Shown: in pieces, positions 2,899-46,842 of the stretch
How positions within the stretch are numbered: the stretch's first letter is position 1
Layout of the letters: each line of letters begins with the position of its first letter
Assembly (NCBI GenBank): GCA_026125385.1
Contig: JAHCLG010000012.1
Location: 1 to 64,000, forward strand
Direction of reading: 5' to 3'
DNA: 64,000 nt
Source: Legionellales bacterium
GTDB lineage: Bacteria > Pseudomonadota > Gammaproteobacteria > JAHCLG01
Translations under genes and position numbers: made by a program
Notes under the pieces: generated by a model
What the model was told of the DNA's origin: nothing
The model's input: only the letters and a program-made list of their open reading frames with translations
The model's database searches: none

Positions 2899-4086
2899 TT
2901 ATTTTATGACTCCTAATTCACGACCAATTTTTGCAAACGCTGCAAGGGCTTTATCTAAGTGTTGGCGCTCATGCCCTGCGGACATTTGCACACGAATTCG
3001 TGCTTGGCCTTTAGGTACCACAGGATAAGAAAAGCCAATCACATAAATTTGCTCATCCAACATTTTTGCCGCCATTAAACTGGCTAATTTCGCATCTCCC
3101 AACAGCACAGGAATAATCGGATGAACACCGGGCACTAAATTGAATCCTAAGTTTTCCATTTCTTTACGGAAATACCGGCCATTTTCATGTAGTTTTTCTC
3201 GCAGCTCATGATTATTTTCTAATAAATCGAATACAGCAAGGGATGTCGCCGTAATCACTGGAGCTAAGGTATTTGAAAATAAATAAGGTCGAGAGCGATT
3301 ACGTAACCACTCGATAATTTCTTTACGCGCACACGTATAACCACCTGAAGCACCACCCAAAGCTTTTCCTAGCGTGCCAGTAATAATATCGACACGTCCC
3401 ATGACTTGACAATATTCGTGCGTGCCACGGCCATTTTCTCCCATAAATCCTACGGCATGGGAATCGTCGACCATAACTAAAGCATCGTATTTTTCGGCTA
3501 AATCGCAGATCGCACTTAAATTTGCAATAATGCCATCCATCGAAAAAACACCATCTGTTGCAATTAAGCGGAATCGCGCCTCTTTAGTTTCTTGTAAACA
3601 CCGTTCTAGATCTTGCATATCGTTATTATGATACCGCCAACGTTTGGCTTTCGATAAGCGCACGCCGTCGATGATGCTCGCATGATTTAAGGCATCACTG
3701 ATAATGGCATCCTCTTCACTTAATAAAGTTTCAAATAAGCCACCGTTAGCATCAAAGCAGGAAGAATACAAAATGGTATCTTCCATTCCTAAAAAATCTG
3801 CTATTCGTTGTTCTAATTGTTTATGAATCGTTTGAGTGCCACAAATAAAACGCACCGAGGACATGCCATAACCATAGTGCTCTAGTGCTTTTTGGCCGCT
3901 AGCAATTAATGCCGGATGGTCGGCTAAGCCCAGGTAATTGTTTGCGCAAAAATTAAGAACATGCTGGTGATTCACCTCAATTTCTGCTGTTTGCGCAGAA
4001 GTAATAACGCGTTCTGATTTATATAATCCTTGTTCTTTTAATTCAGCGAGCTCTTGTTGCAGATGCGGAAATATTGTTTGGCTCAT
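2899..4086 (-). CDS. kbl: Glycine C-acetyltransferase (2-amino-3-ketobutyrate CoA ligase)
   Basis: PLP enzyme that cleaves 2-amino-3-ketobutyrate with CoA into glycine and acetyl-CoA, the step after Tdh. The alpha-oxoamine synthase features are present: [10 protein letters not shown] near the N-terminus, DDSHAVGF, and the PLP lysine in TLGKALGG. The ATG at 4086 is chosen because GAGGAG lies seven bases upstream; a GTG two codons earlier is less likely. The resulting 395 residues match the family's usual length of just under 400. It is the first gene of the kbl-tdh operon and is separated from the upstream HU-like gene by a strong terminator. Confidence 0.96.
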
Positions 4087-31884: not shown

Positions 31885-33384
31885 CTAAATACTTGTGGCC
31901 TCATCATTTAAGAGATTTTTATTTATTAAATCAATTAACATATTCCTATCAACTTTTCCTATCCCACGGCGTGGAATACTATCGAATTTAATAAGCCTCT
32001 TGGGTAAATCAACACCACTAAGATGCTCTCGTAGCATTTTTAAAATCATGCCACGACTCAAATTCATATTATCGCTGACATAACATAAGCAAGGAATATG
32101 TCCAAGCTGTTCATCTGGTATGGGAATTATTACAAAGTCTTCAAATAAATTTAATGCTTGAATGACATTTGAAATTTTTAACGTGCTAACTTTTTTTCCA
32201 GCACACTTAAATACATCATCTTTTCTGCCCGACAGATATAATAAGCCGCGTTCATTGACATATCCCATATCTCCTGTTTTTAGACCAGCACTAGTAATAA
32301 ACTCTTGGCTCAACTCTGGTTTATCAAGATAACCTGAAAAAATGTAGTCTCCCACAACATAGATTTCACCTGTTTTGTTTGGCGCGGCTATTTGTTTATT
32401 CTCATCTAGAATTTTTATAGTTAACCCAGGAATTGGATAACCAACACTACCCGGATAAGTTCTAGCAAGGTGAGAAGGTAGGATGCAGAATCTTCCTGCT
32501 AATTCAGTTAAACCATAGGCCACAAACAATTGCAAGTTTTTGAAGTGGTTTAATAATTTGATACTTAAGTCGGGATTTAAATTATCTCCAGAGGACATTA
32601 TCCAAGTAATATTTTCTAATATCTCACTATCTGACAGATCAGATTCTATACTGTTAATTATCCATTGAAGTTGAATAGGAGAGCCTCCAAATGCTGTTGC
32701 TTTTTTGGCAATTAATAATGAGCATATATCTTTAGGAAATAGTTTTTGAGTAGTTGTGATAAAAGATGCAACATTCAGACAAGCAAAAACAAAATGGCAG
32801 AGTGTACTGGTAAAGTGTTTGGCACTAATCACGAGTAAGCGAGCAGTCGGAGAAATTTTTGCAACTGTAGATGTTGCCAAAGAATTTTGCAAAATCATTG
32901 CATGCGTTAACTGAACCCCTTTGGGGTCCCCTGTAGTTCCACTTGTAAACAATATCGCAGCAAGCTCATTATATTTGAACTTAGGCAATGAAAAATTTTT
33001 TTCATTAGGGCAATTAATGTTTGGGATAAATTTTTTACAATTAGAATTTATATCTTCTGAACAATGATTATTACCTATTATTAAAACTGGTTTTACTGCA
33101 TTAATAATTGTTAATAAATATTCAGGATTAGCAGTATTATCTAAGGGAACTAAAATTGCTCCTGTACTCCAGATAGCAAGACAACACACCCAATATAAAT
33201 TACCTAAATTAGAAGAGACTAAAATGGCATCTCCTGGCTTCACATTTTGTTCCTGCAATTGTTTAGAAATGATATTAACGTAATTAATAATTTCATTTTT
33301 ACTAAATATCACCTCATCATCAACCAATTCAAAACTCAATTTATGCTGGATAACATTTAATAAATACTGCGCACAATTCAACAT
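31885..33384 (-). CDS. Adenylate-forming ligase (ANL superfamily), DltA-like, of the acylation locus
   Basis: A 499-residue ligase expected to activate a carboxylic acid with ATP and load it onto a carrier protein. Motifs: P-loop FTSGTTGDPKG (146-156), YGLTE, LKTGDMGY, GRKDDVFKCAGKKVS and the catalytic Lys477 in GKVDR. In DltA and peptide-synthetase domains an Asp around the position of Ser193 here (KHFTSTLCH) binds the substrate's amine. That Asp is absent by my alignment, so a non-amino acid substrate is possible. It is the second gene of an operon with the MBOAT, 16 bases apart. GAGGA precedes the ATG. Confidence 0.82.
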   Translation of the reverse strand: MLNCAQYLLNVIQHKLSFELVDDEVIFSKNEIINYVNIISKQLQEQNVKPGDAILVSSNLGNLYWVCCLAIWSTGAILVPLDNTANPEYLLTIINAVKPVLIIGNNHCSEDINSNCKKFIPNINCPNEKNFSLPKFKYNELAAILFTSGTTGDPKGVQLTHAMILQNSLATSTVAKISPTARLLVISAKHFTSTLCHFVFACLNVASFITTTQKLFPKDICSLLIAKKATAFGGSPIQLQWIINSIESDLSDSEILENITWIMSSGDNLNPDLSIKLLNHFKNLQLFVAYGLTELAGRFCILPSHLARTYPGSVGYPIPGLTIKILDENKQIAAPNKTGEIYVVGDYIFSGYLDKPELSQEFITSAGLKTGDMGYVNERGLLYLSGRKDDVFKCAGKKVSTLKISNVIQALNLFEDFVIIPIPDEQLGHIPCLCYVSDNMNLSRGMILKMLREHLSGVDLPKRLIKFDSIPRRGIGKVDRNMLIDLINKNLLNDEATSI

Positions 33385-33400
33385 TTATATCATCCTCAGA

Positions 33401-35086
33401 TTAAAAAATATGTAACATCTTAGTAAATATTAATTGCCAAAAACGGAGAAAAATTTCCATCGCGGTTGCATAATCACTAAACATAACAAAAACATGCCCC
33501 AATGCAACATAGCTAATCGTTAAAAAAACTCCTGAAATGTATTTAATGCCATAGAAAAATGATAATTTATGTTTATGTTTGTTTTTACTCTTGTTTTTAA
33601 TTCCAACACGTTTCATAAACCAAACCAAAAAACAAAGCCCGCTTGCATGATATATTGCCCAACTGAACCATGATAAATCATAAACATGCCATAATCCCAC
33701 CGCAATCATTGTCGCGTAAAAAGGTAGATAGGGATTTTTGGTAACAAGCACTAATGGGAAATAAATATTACGAAAACACCACATCGATAATGAGCGATGC
33801 CATCTGCGCCAAAATTCTTGTAAGTTTGTTGCCAAAATTGGCCAGTTAAAATTTTCCATAATTTTGTAGCCAAATAATCGACCAAAGCCAATGGCCATAT
33901 CTGAATATCCCGAAAAATCAAAATAAGCATAAAAAAAACTACAATATAGTGAAAAAACAATTGTTGACAAATTGCAGTCGTGGGGGAACAACCCCACTCT
34001 AAAAAACAGACTTTCACTACCATTATTTAACCAATAACTTAAAAACATATCAGCGATAATTATTTTTTTAACCATCCCAAAACTTATTCGAGTGAACCCA
34101 TAAGCGATATCATCTGCTGTAATTTTAGGTGTACGATTTGCCAAAAAACTCTCAACTGTTTCTATTGGACCAGCAGGGATCGTTGGGAAGAACAAAATGA
34201 AGCATAAAAATTCGCGTAGACTTAGTTGCGAAAGCTCTTGCCTGTACCAGCGTAACAATGTGTCAATTAGGCGAATTACAAAATATGAAACACCTAAGGG
34301 TAATGCAAGACTTAAATTACCTGGAGAAAATATTGAAAATAGCAATTTATTACCATATTTAAAAAGAACTAGAAATAATAGGGCTAATGTAAAGCCAATA
34401 AAAAAAAGACCACGCCTTTTTTTTTCTCGCTGAATCGAAGATAGCCAATTTTTACCAAAGTAGTACATTAAAATTAGGAAAAGGACTAAAAAAAATGTGA
34501 AAACTGGTTGGATATAGATTAATATGATTACTGAAATTACAATAATAAACCATTGGCTCAAGCGTGTTTTTTTATGTAAAAAAATATTTGTTACAAACGC
34601 GGCAATAATAAATAGAAATATTATAGTTAGCTTATTATGAGAAATATTTAGTTGCTCACCAAAACTTAGTTGTCGAGGTTTAATTTTGTATATTATAGTT
34701 TGGTCATCTAATGATTTTAGAGTAAACTGCGTTGGTAATTTATTTTGAGTAATGGGAATATGACATTCTAATTCCTTATTAGCAATCTGTTTACAGTATC
34801 TATTTTGGAAGTTAAGGATGTAATATTCATCACCCAGATTAATATTAAGCGCTCCATCAAAAGATAAATCTAAGGCAAGTCGTTCAGTAATGTGTGTTGT
34901 GGGTATCTCAAAAGTTAGATTTTGATTTTTAGATATGACCATAGGAAGTTTATGTATTCTAATTTTTGATGTTTGATTCAAAACACGAATTTTAACACTG
35001 TTTGTTTTTACAATCATGTGCACAATCAACCCCAAAAAAAGGATAAAAAATAAAATCAATATATTCAATTTTGCATTTAACTTCAT
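33401..35086 (-). CDS. MBOAT-family acyltransferase (DltB-like) with N-terminal periplasmic domain
   Basis: A multi-spanning membrane protein of 561 residues. From about residue 155 it is a DltB/AlgI-type MBOAT: FDFSGYSDMAIGFGRLFG, NFNWPILATNLQEFWRRWH, CFRNIYFPL and the catalytic His467 in VGLWHVYDLSW. Before this is a transmembrane anchor (about 8-27) and about 120 residues of predicted extracytoplasmic beta-rich sequence (30-150), unusual for DltB. It should move an acyl group from a carrier thioester to an extracytoplasmic acceptor. The C-terminus lacks an FxYxxF tail, consistent with use of the separate microprotein. It is divergent from the flavoprotein operon. Confidence 0.88.
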   Translation of the reverse strand: MKLNAKLNILILFFILFLGLIVHMIVKTNSVKIRVLNQTSKIRIHKLPMVISKNQNLTFEIPTTHITERLALDLSFDGALNINLGDEYYILNFQNRYCKQIANKELECHIPITQNKLPTQFTLKSLDDQTIIYKIKPRQLSFGEQLNISHNKLTIIFLFIIAAFVTNIFLHKKTRLSQWFIIVISVIILIYIQPVFTFFLVLFLILMYYFGKNWLSSIQREKKRRGLFFIGFTLALLFLVLFKYGNKLLFSIFSPGNLSLALPLGVSYFVIRLIDTLLRWYRQELSQLSLREFLCFILFFPTIPAGPIETVESFLANRTPKITADDIAYGFTRISFGMVKKIIIADMFLSYWLNNGSESLFFRVGLFPHDCNLSTIVFSLYCSFFYAYFDFSGYSDMAIGFGRLFGYKIMENFNWPILATNLQEFWRRWHRSLSMWCFRNIYFPLVLVTKNPYLPFYATMIAVGLWHVYDLSWFSWAIYHASGLCFLVWFMKRVGIKNKSKNKHKHKLSFFYGIKYISGVFLTISYVALGHVFVMFSDYATAMEIFLRFWQLIFTKMLHIF

Positions 35087-35206: not shown

Positions 35207-35264
35207 CATGCGCTAATTTAAATCGCTACGATATTATTGTTAATTGCGGGAAGATGCAAGAACC

Positions 35265-36779
35265 ATGGACAACAATATACAATCTCGCCCCCTCATTCTG
35301 GGTATTTCTGGCAGTCTAAGAAATTCTCGATTTGGTGCAGGTAGTGAAAAATTATGCAGTGAACTTAAAGAGATCGCCACCAAAGATGAACTAATCAGCT
35401 ACATAGACGCTCAAGCCAAAATTCGTTTGGACGATTTTTTTAATGCTGGGCGCGCTCAAGGTGAAGCGTTTGATAAAATTTACGATAACTTACGTCGCAG
35501 TAGAAATGACCGTGGATTAAGTAATTCTGAAATTGGTTTAGCTGCGGCACTATGGGCTGCTTATCACCATGGCATGGATATAACACATCTTGGTTTATCC
35601 CGTTATTTTCCTGATGTAGGCGAACCTCGGCATCTTGATGAACTGAGAGAGTTCATTCTCACTGCAGATGCATTAATTCTTTCCGGTCCTGTCTACTTTG
35701 GCGATCGTGGCTCATTGATTGGATCGTTTATTCGCTTTCTTCAAACTGATGAGACATGCAAAAATCATTTAAAAAACAAAATTTATGCCGGAATTGCCGT
35801 TGGTGCAAAACGTAATGGAGGCCAAGAAACTACGCTGATTTATCAATTATATGATATGACTCAACTGGGTATGCTGGCGGTTGGCAATGATAGTGATACC
35901 ACAGCACAATATGGTGGGACCATTCAAGCCGGTGATGTTGGCTTTGCCTCCAGAGACATGTATGGAATTGATACTGCCTTAGGGGTTGGAAGAAGAGTGG
36001 CCGATGTTTTAACTTTACAAAATTTACCTACTCCACCTCACTCACTACCCAAAAAAACCAAGATTGCCCTTTGGTTATTAGAAGATGATATCAAACAACA
36101 AGGCGATACTCTCACTCAACAATTAATCCAAGAATTCACTCAAGACGACCAAATTGAATTTGTTTATCATAATTTTACTCAAGCTAATATTCGTCGTTGT
36201 ATTGCTTGTGATTTATGCCCCACAGAATTTGCAGAAAAAGAAAACTACCGTTGCATTATTCAAACCAAGCACGACTTATTTACCCAAATGCATTCTGAAA
36301 TTGTCAATGTGGACGCGATTATCTTAGTGGCATTTTGTCCAAAAAATCAAAATGAGCGGGTCACTACCTATCAAAAATTTATTGAGCGTACGCGCTATTT
36401 GCGCCGAGATAATTATGTGTTTGATAATTTATTAGCAACGGCATTAGTAATAGAAGAATTAGGCGGTTCAAGAGGATTACAAATTAGAATGTTAACTTCT
36501 CTCTTGCGTCACCACACGATTTTGCATGATGTATTGCGCGCTTATTCGCATGAAGGGCAATTATTCCGTTGGAATGAGTTGATCGATTCCGCTAAAAATT
36601 TCGCTGCACAGGCCAAAATATTGACTGCAAAACGTGAAACTCAAGAGCAGTCTCATCGAAATGTTTACTATAATCCTGTAGGTTATAAAATCAGTGCAGA
36701 ACGATTTCATGAGCAACTTGAAAAATTTTCGCCCAGTCAGTCAACGATCGAACCTTTTGATCTGAAGATTAAAACTTAG
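35265..36779 (+). CDS. Two-domain flavodoxin-fold NAD(P)H-dependent reductase with Cys cluster motif
   Basis: About 504 residues. The first half is an NADPH-dependent FMN reductase fold: ILGISGSLRNSRFG at the start fits the phosphate loop, and ADALILSGPVYFGDRGS the second FMN loop. The second half starts with another flavodoxin-like strand (KIALWLLEDD) and carries CIACDLC and a fourth Cys 12 residues on (Cys312, 315, 318, 330). This CxxCxxC..C pattern resembles iron-sulfur flavoproteins. The ATG at 35265 is preferred to an in-frame TTG at 35244. The microprotein gene begins 16 bases past the stop, so a redox role in the acylation pathway is plausible but unproven. Confidence 0.72.
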   Translation: MDNNIQSRPLILGISGSLRNSRFGAGSEKLCSELKEIATKDELISYIDAQAKIRLDDFFNAGRAQGEAFDKIYDNLRRSRNDRGLSNSEIGLAAALWAAYHHGMDITHLGLSRYFPDVGEPRHLDELREFILTADALILSGPVYFGDRGSLIGSFIRFLQTDETCKNHLKNKIYAGIAVGAKRNGGQETTLIYQLYDMTQLGMLAVGNDSDTTAQYGGTIQAGDVGFASRDMYGIDTALGVGRRVADVLTLQNLPTPPHSLPKKTKIALWLLEDDIKQQGDTLTQQLIQEFTQDDQIEFVYHNFTQANIRRCIACDLCPTEFAEKENYRCIIQTKHDLFTQMHSEIVNVDAIILVAFCPKNQNERVTTYQKFIERTRYLRRDNYVFDNLLATALVIEELGGSRGLQIRMLTSLLRHHTILHDVLRAYSHEGQLFRWNELIDSAKNFAAQAKILTAKRETQEQSHRNVYYNPVGYKISAERFHEQLEKFSPSQSTIEPFDLKIKT

Positions 36780-36795
36780 TAGTGGAGTAAACTGT

Positions 36796-36930
36796 ATGAG
36801 CTTTTTTTTCAAACGATTTACGATATTTATTTTACAATGTTTTTTTTGGTTTACATTATTTTCCATCCTGCTATTAGTGCTAACTTTTTCTGACCTTTCA
36901 CTAGCACCATTTCGATATGCTGGTTTTTAA
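36796..36930 (+). CDS. DltX-like membrane microprotein with C-terminal acyl-shuttle motif
   Basis: A 44-residue protein beginning MSFFFKRFTIF, with one hydrophobic helix (about 8-30) and a short tail ending APFRYAGF at the stop. Basic residues before the helix predict an outside C-terminus. The last six residues, F-R-Y-A-G-F, fit the FxYxxF hexapeptide of DltX, where an MBOAT esterifies the Tyr and an SGNH partner takes the acyl group. A GGAG lies eight bases before the ATG, and the stop TAA directly abuts the ATG of the SGNH gene. With an MBOAT, ligase and carrier protein nearby, the identification is strong, although based on motif and context alone. Confidence 0.85.
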   Translation: MSFFFKRFTIFILQCFFWFTLFSILLLVLTFSDLSLAPFRYAGF

Positions 36931-38016
36931 ATGCACGCTTTAAAAAAATTCTTGATAGATTTATTTACGCCTAGATTAGCTCCCATTTTATCAGCTATTA
37001 TTTTAATTTCCATATTTTTATGTGTTTCTCAGTTTTATCTTAAAAAATTATCGTTCATGTATGGGAATGATGATTACAGTAGAGCATCTTATTTGGCTAA
37101 CTTTACCCAAAAATCAAAAGCATTATCAGTAGTTGTTTTAGGGGGATCTACATTTAGAGAGTCAACTTATTCCGATAAAATCGTTTCCGATATCTTATCA
37201 AGAGAACTTCATAGTGATATTCAGTTTCTTAATCTTGCAAGTAGCTCTCAAACGTTTTTAGAAAGCAGAGCAATATTCGATACATTAAAAATCCAAAGAA
37301 ACTCTCTTTTACTAATTGGATTAACACCATCACGCTTTAACGAAAGCTATTCAGACATGCTTAAGCAATATAACAATCCACGAATACCGTTTTTAAATTA
37401 TCGAGGGATTAAAGCTTTTTTAGCTACTAATATTAATCGTTTTCTAATTTGGTACCCTGATTTTTTTAGTTATAGTTTATGGATTAAAAAACGTTTTATT
37501 GAGCTATCTCCCTCTGCATGCTCAATAAATTTCTCGTTATCGGCAAGCACCAAGTGCATTGTTGCTACATTCAGAAATATAAGTGATTATCAACTTCCCT
37601 CTATGAAATTACACCATTATTATAACATGAGCCCTCTATCTGCTGAACAAAAGAAAAACTTCACCAAGGAGTATGCCAAAATAATGAAAAAAAAATTTAA
37701 TACAAACTATCTTTATTCTTCCCAATTGTTGTTAACCTTAATCCGAGATGCTCAAAAAAAGCACGTAAAAGTTATTCTTTATTTTTTACCCAGATCAACA
37801 TTAGCCAGACAAGCCGATAGTTATCTTTTTTTAAATCTTAACCAAGAATTAACTAAAATACAAAAAATAACCCATGTACCATTATATAATTTGATAAATT
37901 CACCAAACTTAACTGACGAAGATTATTACGATATTTATCATTTTTTGCCAAGTGGACGTAAAAAATTTGCACCTCAATTTTATTCATTAGTGGAAAATGC
38001 TTGGAAAAATGATTAG
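36931..38016 (+). CDS. SGNH-hydrolase-like, DltD-type acyltransferase partner
   Basis: A 361-residue protein with one N-terminal membrane anchor (about 15-36) and an extracytoplasmic SGNH domain. The nucleophile block is VVLGGSTFRES (Ser73), and the C-terminal Asp334-I-Y-His337, followed by FLPSGRKKFA, supplies the other catalytic residues. DltD takes the acyl group from DltX's Tyr onto its Ser and then passes it to the polymer; the same role is inferred here. It starts on the base after the microprotein stop without its own clear ribosome site, so translation is coupled. The acceptor polymer is unknown. Confidence 0.78.
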   Translation: MHALKKFLIDLFTPRLAPILSAIILISIFLCVSQFYLKKLSFMYGNDDYSRASYLANFTQKSKALSVVVLGGSTFRESTYSDKIVSDILSRELHSDIQFLNLASSSQTFLESRAIFDTLKIQRNSLLLIGLTPSRFNESYSDMLKQYNNPRIPFLNYRGIKAFLATNINRFLIWYPDFFSYSLWIKKRFIELSPSACSINFSLSASTKCIVATFRNISDYQLPSMKLHHYYNMSPLSAEQKKNFTKEYAKIMKKKFNTNYLYSSQLLLTLIRDAQKKHVKVILYFLPRSTLARQADSYLFLNLNQELTKIQKITHVPLYNLINSPNLTDEDYYDIYHFLPSGRKKFAPQFYSLVENAWKND

Positions 38017-38199: not shown

Positions 38200-38457
38200 A
38201 TGGGCAACGAAATTACTGAATTAGAATCCGCGATTAAAGAAATCTTCTTTAATGAATTTGGCCTATCTAGTGACGAGTTATCAGAAGAAACAGGTTTGTT
38301 TAGCAATAGTGTACTTGACTCACTTGATGTAATTCGTTTAATGAGTAGTATAGAAAAAAAATTTACTATAAAAATACCCGTGTACGCGGTTAGCCTTGAA
38401 GATTTTGACTCTATTTCGAAAATTGTCATACTTATTCAAAAGTTTAGAGTAAAATAA
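38200..38457 (+). CDS. Acyl carrier protein of the acylation locus
   Basis: An 85-residue carrier protein with the phosphopantetheine site Ser41 in SVLDSLDVIRL, acidic helices on both sides, and the usual four-helix length. It follows the SGNH gene by 183 bases, after an AAGGT ribosome site, and is followed by a terminator-like hairpin. In the locus it corresponds to DltC: the ligase would load it and the MBOAT discharge it. It is unlikely to be the fatty-acid AcpP, given its context and its divergence from the usual AcpP motif (GADSLD). Confidence 0.87.
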   Translation: MGNEITELESAIKEIFFNEFGLSSDELSEETGLFSNSVLDSLDVIRLMSSIEKKFTIKIPVYAVSLEDFDSISKIVILIQKFRVK

Positions 38458-40642: not shown

Positions 40643-41422
40643 TTAATCTATAGTTTTTTTGGATACTTTAACTAACGCCTGGTATATATTATTATACTGA
40701 ATAATTTTGGCGAGTGATTGAGAAATAATTTGAGTTATGGCTTTATGGATCTTCTGATTCTTCCAAGTGCCTTCAACCTCCATAGCAGCAGAAGCTTTTG
40801 GAATAAAATATAGTGAAAATCCATTATTAAACATATTAACCATTCCTGCTGGTCTTTCTATAATACAAAGATTTGAGGCATAACCTGTATAAACTATTTT
40901 AGTAATTCCAATATTTCTTAATTGTTTTATAAATGAATCTATATCAAAATTTTGCCAAAATAATATTTTAACATTAGAATTAATATAAGCTAATTGATGA
41001 AATTTTTGAGAAATCTCGCAGCTATAAGCCTTTGGCTTAAAAACTCTACAGTCATTTGTGAAAATATATACGTGGAATCCCTTTGCGCTTGCCGCTGTTA
41101 TAAGCGGGAGAATATAATTTTGAGTAATTTTTCCATAATAAGTATTAAGAAATTTTGAAGGCATATTATCCCATGGATCAACTACAAAAAAGGCAGTATC
41201 TTTGTTACTCAACGATGTGTTAAATAAATAATTATTTTTTTTACCTGCGTATGGCACATCTTGATTATCGAGCATTAAAACTCCATTCTGGTCAAGTTTA
41301 AAATAACTTGTTACTGATACTGGAACTACTATTTTTTGAAGATCAATATCAGACTTGGCTGCATAACTGAAGCAATTGATTGTTCCAATAAAAGCAAATA
41401 CTAGCGCTGCAATAATTCTCAC
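40643..41422 (-). CDS. Exported isochorismatase-like cysteine hydrolase
   Basis: A 259-residue protein with a signal peptide (MRIIAALVFAFIGTINCFSYAAK; cut near 20-22) and an isochorismatase-like alpha/beta fold. The putative catalytic Asp is in FFVVDPWDNMP and the Cys is in TGYASNLCIIERP. The ending FIPKASAAMEV fits the family's last strand. Family members hydrolyse amides or vinyl ethers; an exported one inside a sugar locus is unusual, and its substrate is unknown. It lies 17 bases before the 2-epimerase gene. Confidence 0.68.
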   Translation of the reverse strand: MRIIAALVFAFIGTINCFSYAAKSDIDLQKIVVPVSVTSYFKLDQNGVLMLDNQDVPYAGKKNNYLFNTSLSNKDTAFFVVDPWDNMPSKFLNTYYGKITQNYILPLITAASAKGFHVYIFTNDCRVFKPKAYSCEISQKFHQLAYINSNVKILFWQNFDIDSFIKQLRNIGITKIVYTGYASNLCIIERPAGMVNMFNNGFSLYFIPKASAAMEVEGTWKNQKIHKAITQIISQSLAKIIQYNNIYQALVKVSKKTID

Positions 41423-45864: not shown

Positions 45865-46842
45865 TTACCTATAAAAAATCTTTCGAATTAATTTTAAAAA
45901 ATATGAAAAATATCTCATGCTAGAATTTTCTTGTTTTTGCCAAATATCTCGAAAGTTTATTAAGGTATCTGAAGGATATAATACAGATAATATTTTTATA
46001 TATTCTAATTGCATGTTATGGTAAAAAGGGCTGTTATAGTTTTTCATTTTTTCGGGTTTATACAAATCGTAAATAGTCCACTTTGAAGTAGTAAAATACG
46101 GGAGCATTTTTTCTAGTGATTGTATAGCTTCACTCCATAAATTTTTGTATTCAGGATCTTTCGTCCAATATTGTATTTCCCATAAGCATATTAGACTCGC
46201 CATGAAACCATTTATTACAATTGAAGGAGATTGAGGATACTCTTCAAAATAAGAACATTTTTCTAATGGAAAAATAGCTAAATATCCACCTTCTTCTACT
46301 GGTATATAAAATTTTGCTAATGCATTTTTCATAGCAATGTAGTAACGGACTTCTTTCGTATACTGCCATGCTCTTAACATTACAACTGCACCTCTTGCTT
46401 GCGCTAAAGCAGATGACCAGGGACTTTTCGAGTTAAACCAATTAAATTCGTAGTTCCATGCGCCATCGTCTGTTTGAATTTTTTCAAAATAATCCGTGTA
46501 ATGTAGAAATTTCTTTAATATGCACTCGTTCCTCTCAGAGATATATAAGTCATTTAACGCAAGAGCATACTGAAAGGCCGCCTCTGGGTTTAATTGCTGT
46601 CCAATGTCACGATAATATAATACGATAATACCTTCATTATTAGTAAGATTAAATTGCAGTTTATTTTTATAATCCATTAAATAATAAGCATATTCACTAC
46701 TTGTATACTCCTGAAACGATTTTGCATCATATACTCTAGCTTTTGCTGGCAGATACCAAAAGGAATATGTTGATGTATTTATTTTTAGTAAATATTTACC
46801 ATAATCAATCAAAATGCTACTAATATTTTTTAATATTTTCAT
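45865..46842 (-). CDS. D-glucuronyl C5-epimerase family protein
   Basis: A 325-residue protein matching the C-terminal domain of D-glucuronyl C5-epimerase: WFNSKSPWSSALAQARGAVV, GGYLAIFPLEKCSYFEEYP, INGFMASLICLWEI and FYHNMQLEYIKIL (with Tyr/His residues of the active region). No signal peptide is obvious. The family inverts C5 of uronic acids in polymers, as in heparan; here it could turn a D-manno-type uronic acid into an L-gulo form. It starts at the base where the flippase gene ends (one-base overlap). Confidence 0.78.
   Translation of the reverse strand: MKILKNISSILIDYGKYLLKINTSTYSFWYLPAKARVYDAKSFQEYTSSEYAYYLMDYKNKLQFNLTNNEGIIVLYYRDIGQQLNPEAAFQYALALNDLYISERNECILKKFLHYTDYFEKIQTDDGAWNYEFNWFNSKSPWSSALAQARGAVVMLRAWQYTKEVRYYIAMKNALAKFYIPVEEGGYLAIFPLEKCSYFEEYPQSPSIVINGFMASLICLWEIQYWTKDPEYKNLWSEAIQSLEKMLPYFTTSKWTIYDLYKPEKMKNYNSPFYHNMQLEYIKILSVLYPSDTLINFRDIWQKQENSSMRYFSYFLKLIRKIFYR

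Follow-up and report, generated by a model that had tools for sequence, protein, structure and literature searches.

The microgene and its neighbours

The window (the whole 64 kb stretch of DNA that was analysed) harbours a six-gene cassette for a flavoprotein, a microprotein, an SGNH protein, a carrier protein, an MBOAT and an AMP-ligase. The genes form two divergent groups, with those for the MBOAT and AMP-ligase on the minus strand and the other four on the plus strand. The microgene (36796..36930, plus strand) encodes a DltX-like microprotein of 44 residues, MSFFFKRFTIFILQCFFWFTLFSILLLVLTFSDLSLAPFRYAGF, with a single hydrophobic helix (residues 10-28, mean Kyte-Doolittle value 2.49) that is predicted to span the membrane and is preceded by K6 and R7. 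Its extreme C-terminus is FRYAGF (codons 36910-36927, plus strand; Tyr41 codon 36916-36918). The ATG at 36796, the one usable start codon within an open stretch of 54 codons, lies 8 nt downstream of a GGAG ribosome-binding site (36784..36787, plus strand) and 16 nt downstream of the flavoprotein stop codon (36777-36779), and the microgene TAA (36928-36930) is directly followed by the SGNH ATG at 36931. The first-pass annotation of this DNA had described the same ORF, length, tail and neighbours, a good ribosome site, a stop abutting the SGNH start, and a single helix with an FRYAGF ending; sequence and translation agree with it on each of these points. It had also claimed that all other parts of the Dlt pathway are encoded at the locus, and that the local MBOAT has no tail of its own, both of which hold.

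The MBOAT (33401..35086, minus strand; 561 aa with an N-terminal extension) is the only one in its genome and is DltB-like according to Pfam (PF03062), a phylogenetic tree and comparison with solved structures, among which its relatives by sequence are DltB chains only (6bug, E 1.3e-23). It ends in ...FTKMLHIF, without FxYxxF, and W466-H467 is invariant, which corresponds to the conserved His of MBOAT-SGNH shuttle systems. The AMP-forming ligase (31885..33384, minus strand; 499 aa) was recognised by PF00501 (E 1.5e-47) and by motif alignment, and the acyl carrier protein (38200..38457, plus strand; 85 aa) by PF00550 (E 2.2e-7) and its phosphopantetheine site, ..VLDSLDV... The flavoprotein (35244..36779, plus strand; PF03358, E 1.7e-11) has two WrbA/FMN-reductase-like domains and counts 511 aa from a TTG, but its real start is likely to be the ATG at 35265. 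Its AlphaFold2 model (pLDDT 83) matches WrbA, ArsH, SP1951 and related FMN enzymes, and these matches of a predicted fold give no clue to its substrate.

The SGNH, or DltD-like acyl-transfer, protein (36931..38016, plus strand; 361 aa) carries an N-terminal anchor and gave no match in a Pfam scan. Besides the start Met, the sole residues that never vary in an alignment of seven cassette homologues are G71, S73, D334 and H337, a pattern that reads as the SGNH Ser together with its paired Asp-x-x-His. As a sequence-profile comparison of this set with DltD yielded no signal, folds were compared instead. The top PDB match of the AlphaFold2 model was DltD (6pfx, E 1.1e-5), followed by other SGNH esterases, so that homology to DltD would be visible by fold alone and from a modest model (mean pLDDT 66).

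Conservation of the cassette and of the tail

When 369 genomes of the class were searched with the MBOAT, one close locus was found (G356, contig 51; 44% identity). It has all six genes, including a divergent small ORF that ends in FRYAGF like that of the window and a flavoprotein 48% identical to the window flavoprotein. The first-pass annotation had left the flavoprotein outside the system; among the 369 genomes, however, it is present in exactly the two that have the cassette and is therefore part of the gene set. With the flavoprotein as query, 24 loci were recovered from GTDB species genomes, and wherever an MBOAT adjoins and the contig continues, a separate small ORF is found. Searches with the SGNH protein were less productive: a genome-collection scan returned no matches because the protein is too diverged, and plasmid searches with either the SGNH protein or the flavoprotein returned none.

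The cassette thus recurs in other Pseudomonadota. Microproteins end in FRYAGF in G356 and G442, FRYLFF in Hellea, FRYVGF in Pseudaminobacter arsenicus, FRYAAF in Curvivirga aplysinae and G401, FRYIRY in an alphaproteobacterial single cell, FRYIGF in Marinomonas MED121, FRYQNF in G239, which has no flavoprotein, and FIYWDN in G391, where the microgene touches the end of the MBOAT gene. The conserved portion is the tail, F-[RI]-Y, and not the helix. The first-pass annotation had made its reading depend on conservation of the tail and its Tyr at orthologous loci, and the tail is indeed retained across Alpha- and Gammaproteobacteria. The abutting SGNH start, whose conservation it had also proposed to check, is not a constant feature. 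The position of the microgene varies while the tail stays the same: it follows the MBOAT gene at L038, L046 and L107, precedes it at L034 and L106, lies on the opposite strand at L039 and L105, and overlaps the SGNH start at L040 and L048. At L107 (7436-7591), the FIYWDN variant, in which the last aromatic residue is replaced by Asn, abuts the MBOAT stop, and two ligase-like ORFs lie upstream.

Split and fused MBOAT loci

MBOAT loci can be divided into split loci, in which the MBOAT is tail-less, and fused loci, in which the motif forms part of the MBOAT C-terminus. All 11 split loci with intact flanks (L037, interrupted by a contig end, was left out of this count) have a small ORF of their own that ends in a Tyr tail, as against none of 52 fused loci. 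Flanks of 2.5 kb on each side were scanned for split and of approx. 1.5 kb for fused loci, the latter giving zero matches. Ten of the 11 tails read F-R-Y-x-x-[FY] and one FIYWDN. A strict count, limited to ORFs of 30-110 aa ending in F.Y..[FY] and covering 209 kb of fused loci, gave 10/11 vs. 0/52, and when a strong predicted transmembrane helix was also required, 9/11 vs. 0/52 (Fisher p = 2.3e-9). The contrast drawn in the first-pass annotation, between motifs carried on the MBOAT itself and a separate tail, therefore extends to 63 loci (11 split and 52 fused). It also had predictive value: a phylum-wide search with nine tail-less MBOATs revealed three new ones (G401, G442 and G391), and a microprotein was present at all three loci.

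In the MBOAT tree, nine split Pseudomonadota proteins form one clade (97/93), and fused proteins, including an interrupted copy at L024, form another (100/99). Firmicute DltB groups with an MBOAT from Leptolinea, but several branches are long, and the deeper order is therefore unsure. The Leptolinea protein is encoded on a plasmid of this Chloroflexota genus (L071), where the gene for the tail-less MBOAT comes after that for an annotated hypothetical protein of 47 aa (3271-3414) ending in WIYQGF; judging from these features, this would be another split shuttle, beyond those of Bacillota and Pseudomonadota. L024 (98-2556, G261) was considered as a tail-less MBOAT with an FIYFRF ORF and was rejected. 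Here, a truncated fused-type MBOAT adjoins a transposase-like ORF, with the FIYFRF stretch on its far side, so that the locus is a disrupted fused copy, which looks like the result of an insertion sequence, and it was excluded from the split-locus counts.

Supply and nature of the acyl group

The two kinds of loci also differ in their neighbours. Within 1.5 kb of the MBOAT gene, a related AMP-ligase is encoded at 9 of 12 split loci and a carrier protein at 4 of 12, compared with none of the 52 fused loci in either case. Within 5 kb, a carrier protein is encoded at 10 of the 12 split loci (at L106 it lies slightly beyond this distance), fused loci being covered to 1.5 kb. The separate tail therefore tracks the supply of a carrier thioester, and the fused tail, as scanned to 1.5 kb, occurs without it. 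By analogy, the latter appears to be in line with the acetyl-CoA donor known for PatA.

In adenylation domains, the Asp at the FDLS position binds the alpha-amino group of an amino-acid substrate. Enterococcus DltA has this Asp, whereas all ligases of flavoprotein cassettes have T, M, Y or A in the alignment (HFTS in the window, FTS in most). D-alanine is therefore unlikely to be the moved group, as far as this one ligase motif indicates. At three loci with no MBOAT (L050, L051 and L060), the flavoprotein, ligase and carrier genes adjoin Antibiotic_NAT (AAC(3)-type) N-acyltransferases, and a NeuB homologue is encoded at L060. Given this company, the probable product of the three proteins is an acyl group held by the carrier as a thioester. 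Read most simply, the trio seems to act as an acyl-producing module that can deliver either to a cytoplasmic N-acyltransferase or to export by MBOAT, microprotein and SGNH protein. A second type of split locus lacks the flavoprotein (L034, 3870-10365; L106, 7937-14427) and encodes a carrier protein, an Orn/DAP-type PLP decarboxylase, a sulfotransferase, a ligase, an SGNH protein, a microprotein and an MBOAT; the L034 ligase reads FDYG, which places an Asp close to the amine-binding position.

Relation to Dlt and to fused systems

Placed beside annotated DltX in an alignment, the microproteins share a length of approx. 45 aa, one transmembrane helix, a C-terminal FxYxxF and an invariant Tyr. 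Nonetheless, the Pfam DltX profile (PF12459) matched none of eight microproteins at E values up to 10, nothing in the window genome (the B. subtilis and L. lactis controls were detected) and nothing above the cut-off in the 369 genomes of the class, in a profile search in which transmembrane sequences of 40 residues yield little signal. Scanned against Pfam and NCBIfam, the microproteins gave nothing beyond weak, unrelated transmembrane matches. By sequence, the microprotein thus stands outside the Pfam DltX family. The NCBIfam cut-offs are likewise not reached by the window MBOAT (145.5 bits vs. 375 for DltB), carrier protein (33 vs. 68 for DltC) or ligase (121.9 vs. 476 for DltA). The MBOAT His, the SGNH Ser with Asp-x-x-His, and the FxYxxF peptide of MBOAT-SGNH acyl-Tyr shuttles are all present. 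The system appears to work like Dlt, yet its profile scores do not class it as Dlt.

With dltXABCD of Bacillota, the cassette shares a separate single-helix protein of approx. 45 residues ending in FxYxxF, a tail-less DltB-like MBOAT, an SGNH partner, a carrier protein and an AMP-ligase. It differs in its tail (FRYxxF vs. FIYNEF in DltX), its ligase without the amine-binding Asp, the extra flavoprotein, the missing PF12459 match, the Gram-negative hosts and, in the window, the two divergent gene groups. PatA/PatB, AlgI-type and other fused Gram-negative systems have an MBOAT with the catalytic His, an SGNH partner and a C-terminal FxYxxF shuttle, but the motif sits on the MBOAT's own extra helices instead of a separate protein, and the donor is acetyl-CoA (as shown for PatA), whereas the cassette has a carrier protein and ligase. 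Dlt-like gene sets (dltBAC/dltD) are known in a few Gram-negatives, so that such a set alone is not new; those of Dickeya and Pectobacterium are described as D-alanylation homologues, and the available part of that account mentions no microprotein and reports no flavoprotein, unlike the cassette (PMC3544676). The separate microprotein, the non-alanine ligase and the flavoprotein were not found described in the open-access papers covered, which are a part of the whole literature. According to a 2025 account, neither a carrier protein nor a DltX-like microprotein occurs in MBOAT-SGNH pathways apart from Dlt (PMC12148441). The cassette loci are exceptions to this statement, as both are present in Gram-negatives and probably serve another acyl group.

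Proposed mechanism and alternatives

In Dlt, the acyl group goes from the MBOAT to the DltX Tyr and on to DltD; PatA, whose donor is acetyl-CoA, acetylates a required Tyr in its own tail, and the acetylated peptide can serve as a substrate for PatB (PMC12148441). The acyl-Tyr chemistry and topology proposed here are modelled on these biochemical data for DltX and PatA. Directly seen were the gene set, tail conservation, the contrast between split and fused loci, the catalytic residues and the relations by fold. The AMP-ligase would activate a carboxylic acid, probably not D-alanine, and load it onto the carrier protein, and the FMN-type flavoprotein might act on either the acid or the acyl group once bound, as its co-occurrence suggests. 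The MBOAT would then transfer the acyl group across the inner membrane to Tyr41 in the FRYAGF tail, which would swing over and pass it to Ser73 of the SGNH protein, and the latter would esterify a periplasmic polymer, plausibly the product of the adjacent polysaccharide locus. Very probably, the six-gene set moves an acyl group across the inner membrane and decorates a surface polymer. With considerable confidence, the microprotein can be regarded as a separate subunit that shuttles the acyl group within an MBOAT/SGNH acylation machine of the Gram-negative envelope, one that depends on a carrier protein. The DltX-like reading of the first-pass annotation, in the sense of an acyl shuttle that works like DltX with a tail-less MBOAT and an SGNH protein, is well supported by tail conservation, the 63-locus contrast and the matches to DltB and DltD.

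Other explanations are far less probable. Canonical D-alanylation with a diverged DltX, for which the likelihood is low, would involve the same set of parts, with an MBOAT and an SGNH protein nearest DltB and DltD, and dlt genes are on record for Dickeya and Pectobacterium (PMC3544676; PMC5541007). It is difficult to reconcile with ligases that lack the DltA Asp, with ligase, carrier and MBOAT scores far under the NCBIfam cut-offs, or with a flavoprotein that has no Dlt counterpart. It is also unlikely that the microprotein has a structural or assembly role, tethering the SGNH protein to the MBOAT, with a Tyr that is not acylated. A small transmembrane protein joining the two enzymes would show the same co-occurrence, but it is the tail and not the helix that is conserved; moreover, at other loci the MBOAT itself carries this hexapeptide as a fusion, and in PatA its Tyr is acylated and required (PMC12148441).

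The position of the microgene in the window, with its stop touching the SGNH start, and the overlaps with this start at two other loci might point to a leader peptide or upstream ORF that merely couples SGNH translation. Such a role is very improbable and is contradicted by the conservation of the tail despite the variable position of the microgene, i.e., after the MBOAT gene, before it or on the opposite strand. A chance ORF with a chance FxYxxF ending has a negligible probability. The bare FRYxxF-stop nucleotide pattern occurs six times genome-wide, approximately as often as its control, and has no information value at genome scale; however, the window contains 808 stop-to-stop stretches of 30-150 aa, and the microgene is the only one to end in F.Y..F. 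The ending is found again at 10 further distant loci, a conservation that rules chance out.

Returning to the acyl-shuttle reading, we lean slightly towards a broader proposal, in which the cassette represents an undescribed, widespread kind of envelope acylation in Pseudomonadota that depends on a carrier protein: a new acyl group would be supplied by the ligase, carrier and FMN-flavoprotein trio and moved via a separate DltX-like microprotein, the split or fused state of the tail would mark a carrier-thioester or an acyl-CoA donor, and the trio would elsewhere feed cytoplasmic AAC(3)-type sugar N-acylation. If true, a new surface-polymer modification can be elucidated, small genes that are readily overlooked account for how tail-less MBOATs can function, and the rule that a split tail goes with carrier and ligase and a fused one without them predicts the acyl donor from sequence.

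Candidate target polymer

The cassette adjoins a polysaccharide locus, which makes O-antigen or capsule a plausible target. The locus encodes a UDP-GlcNAc 2-epimerase, a glycosyltransferase, an asparagine-synthase-like protein, an O-antigen-ligase-type (Wzy_C) protein, a glucuronyl C5-epimerase-like protein, an initiating sugar transferase, a PglD-like acetyltransferase, an aminotransferase and a CapD-like dehydratase. The D-glucuronyl C5-epimerase-like protein (45865-46842) adjoins the O-antigen-ligase-type and asparagine-synthase-like proteins, and its presence suggests that the polymer may contain uronic acid. Within the same locus, a secreted-looking protein with a weak isochorismatase-domain match is encoded at 40643-41422.
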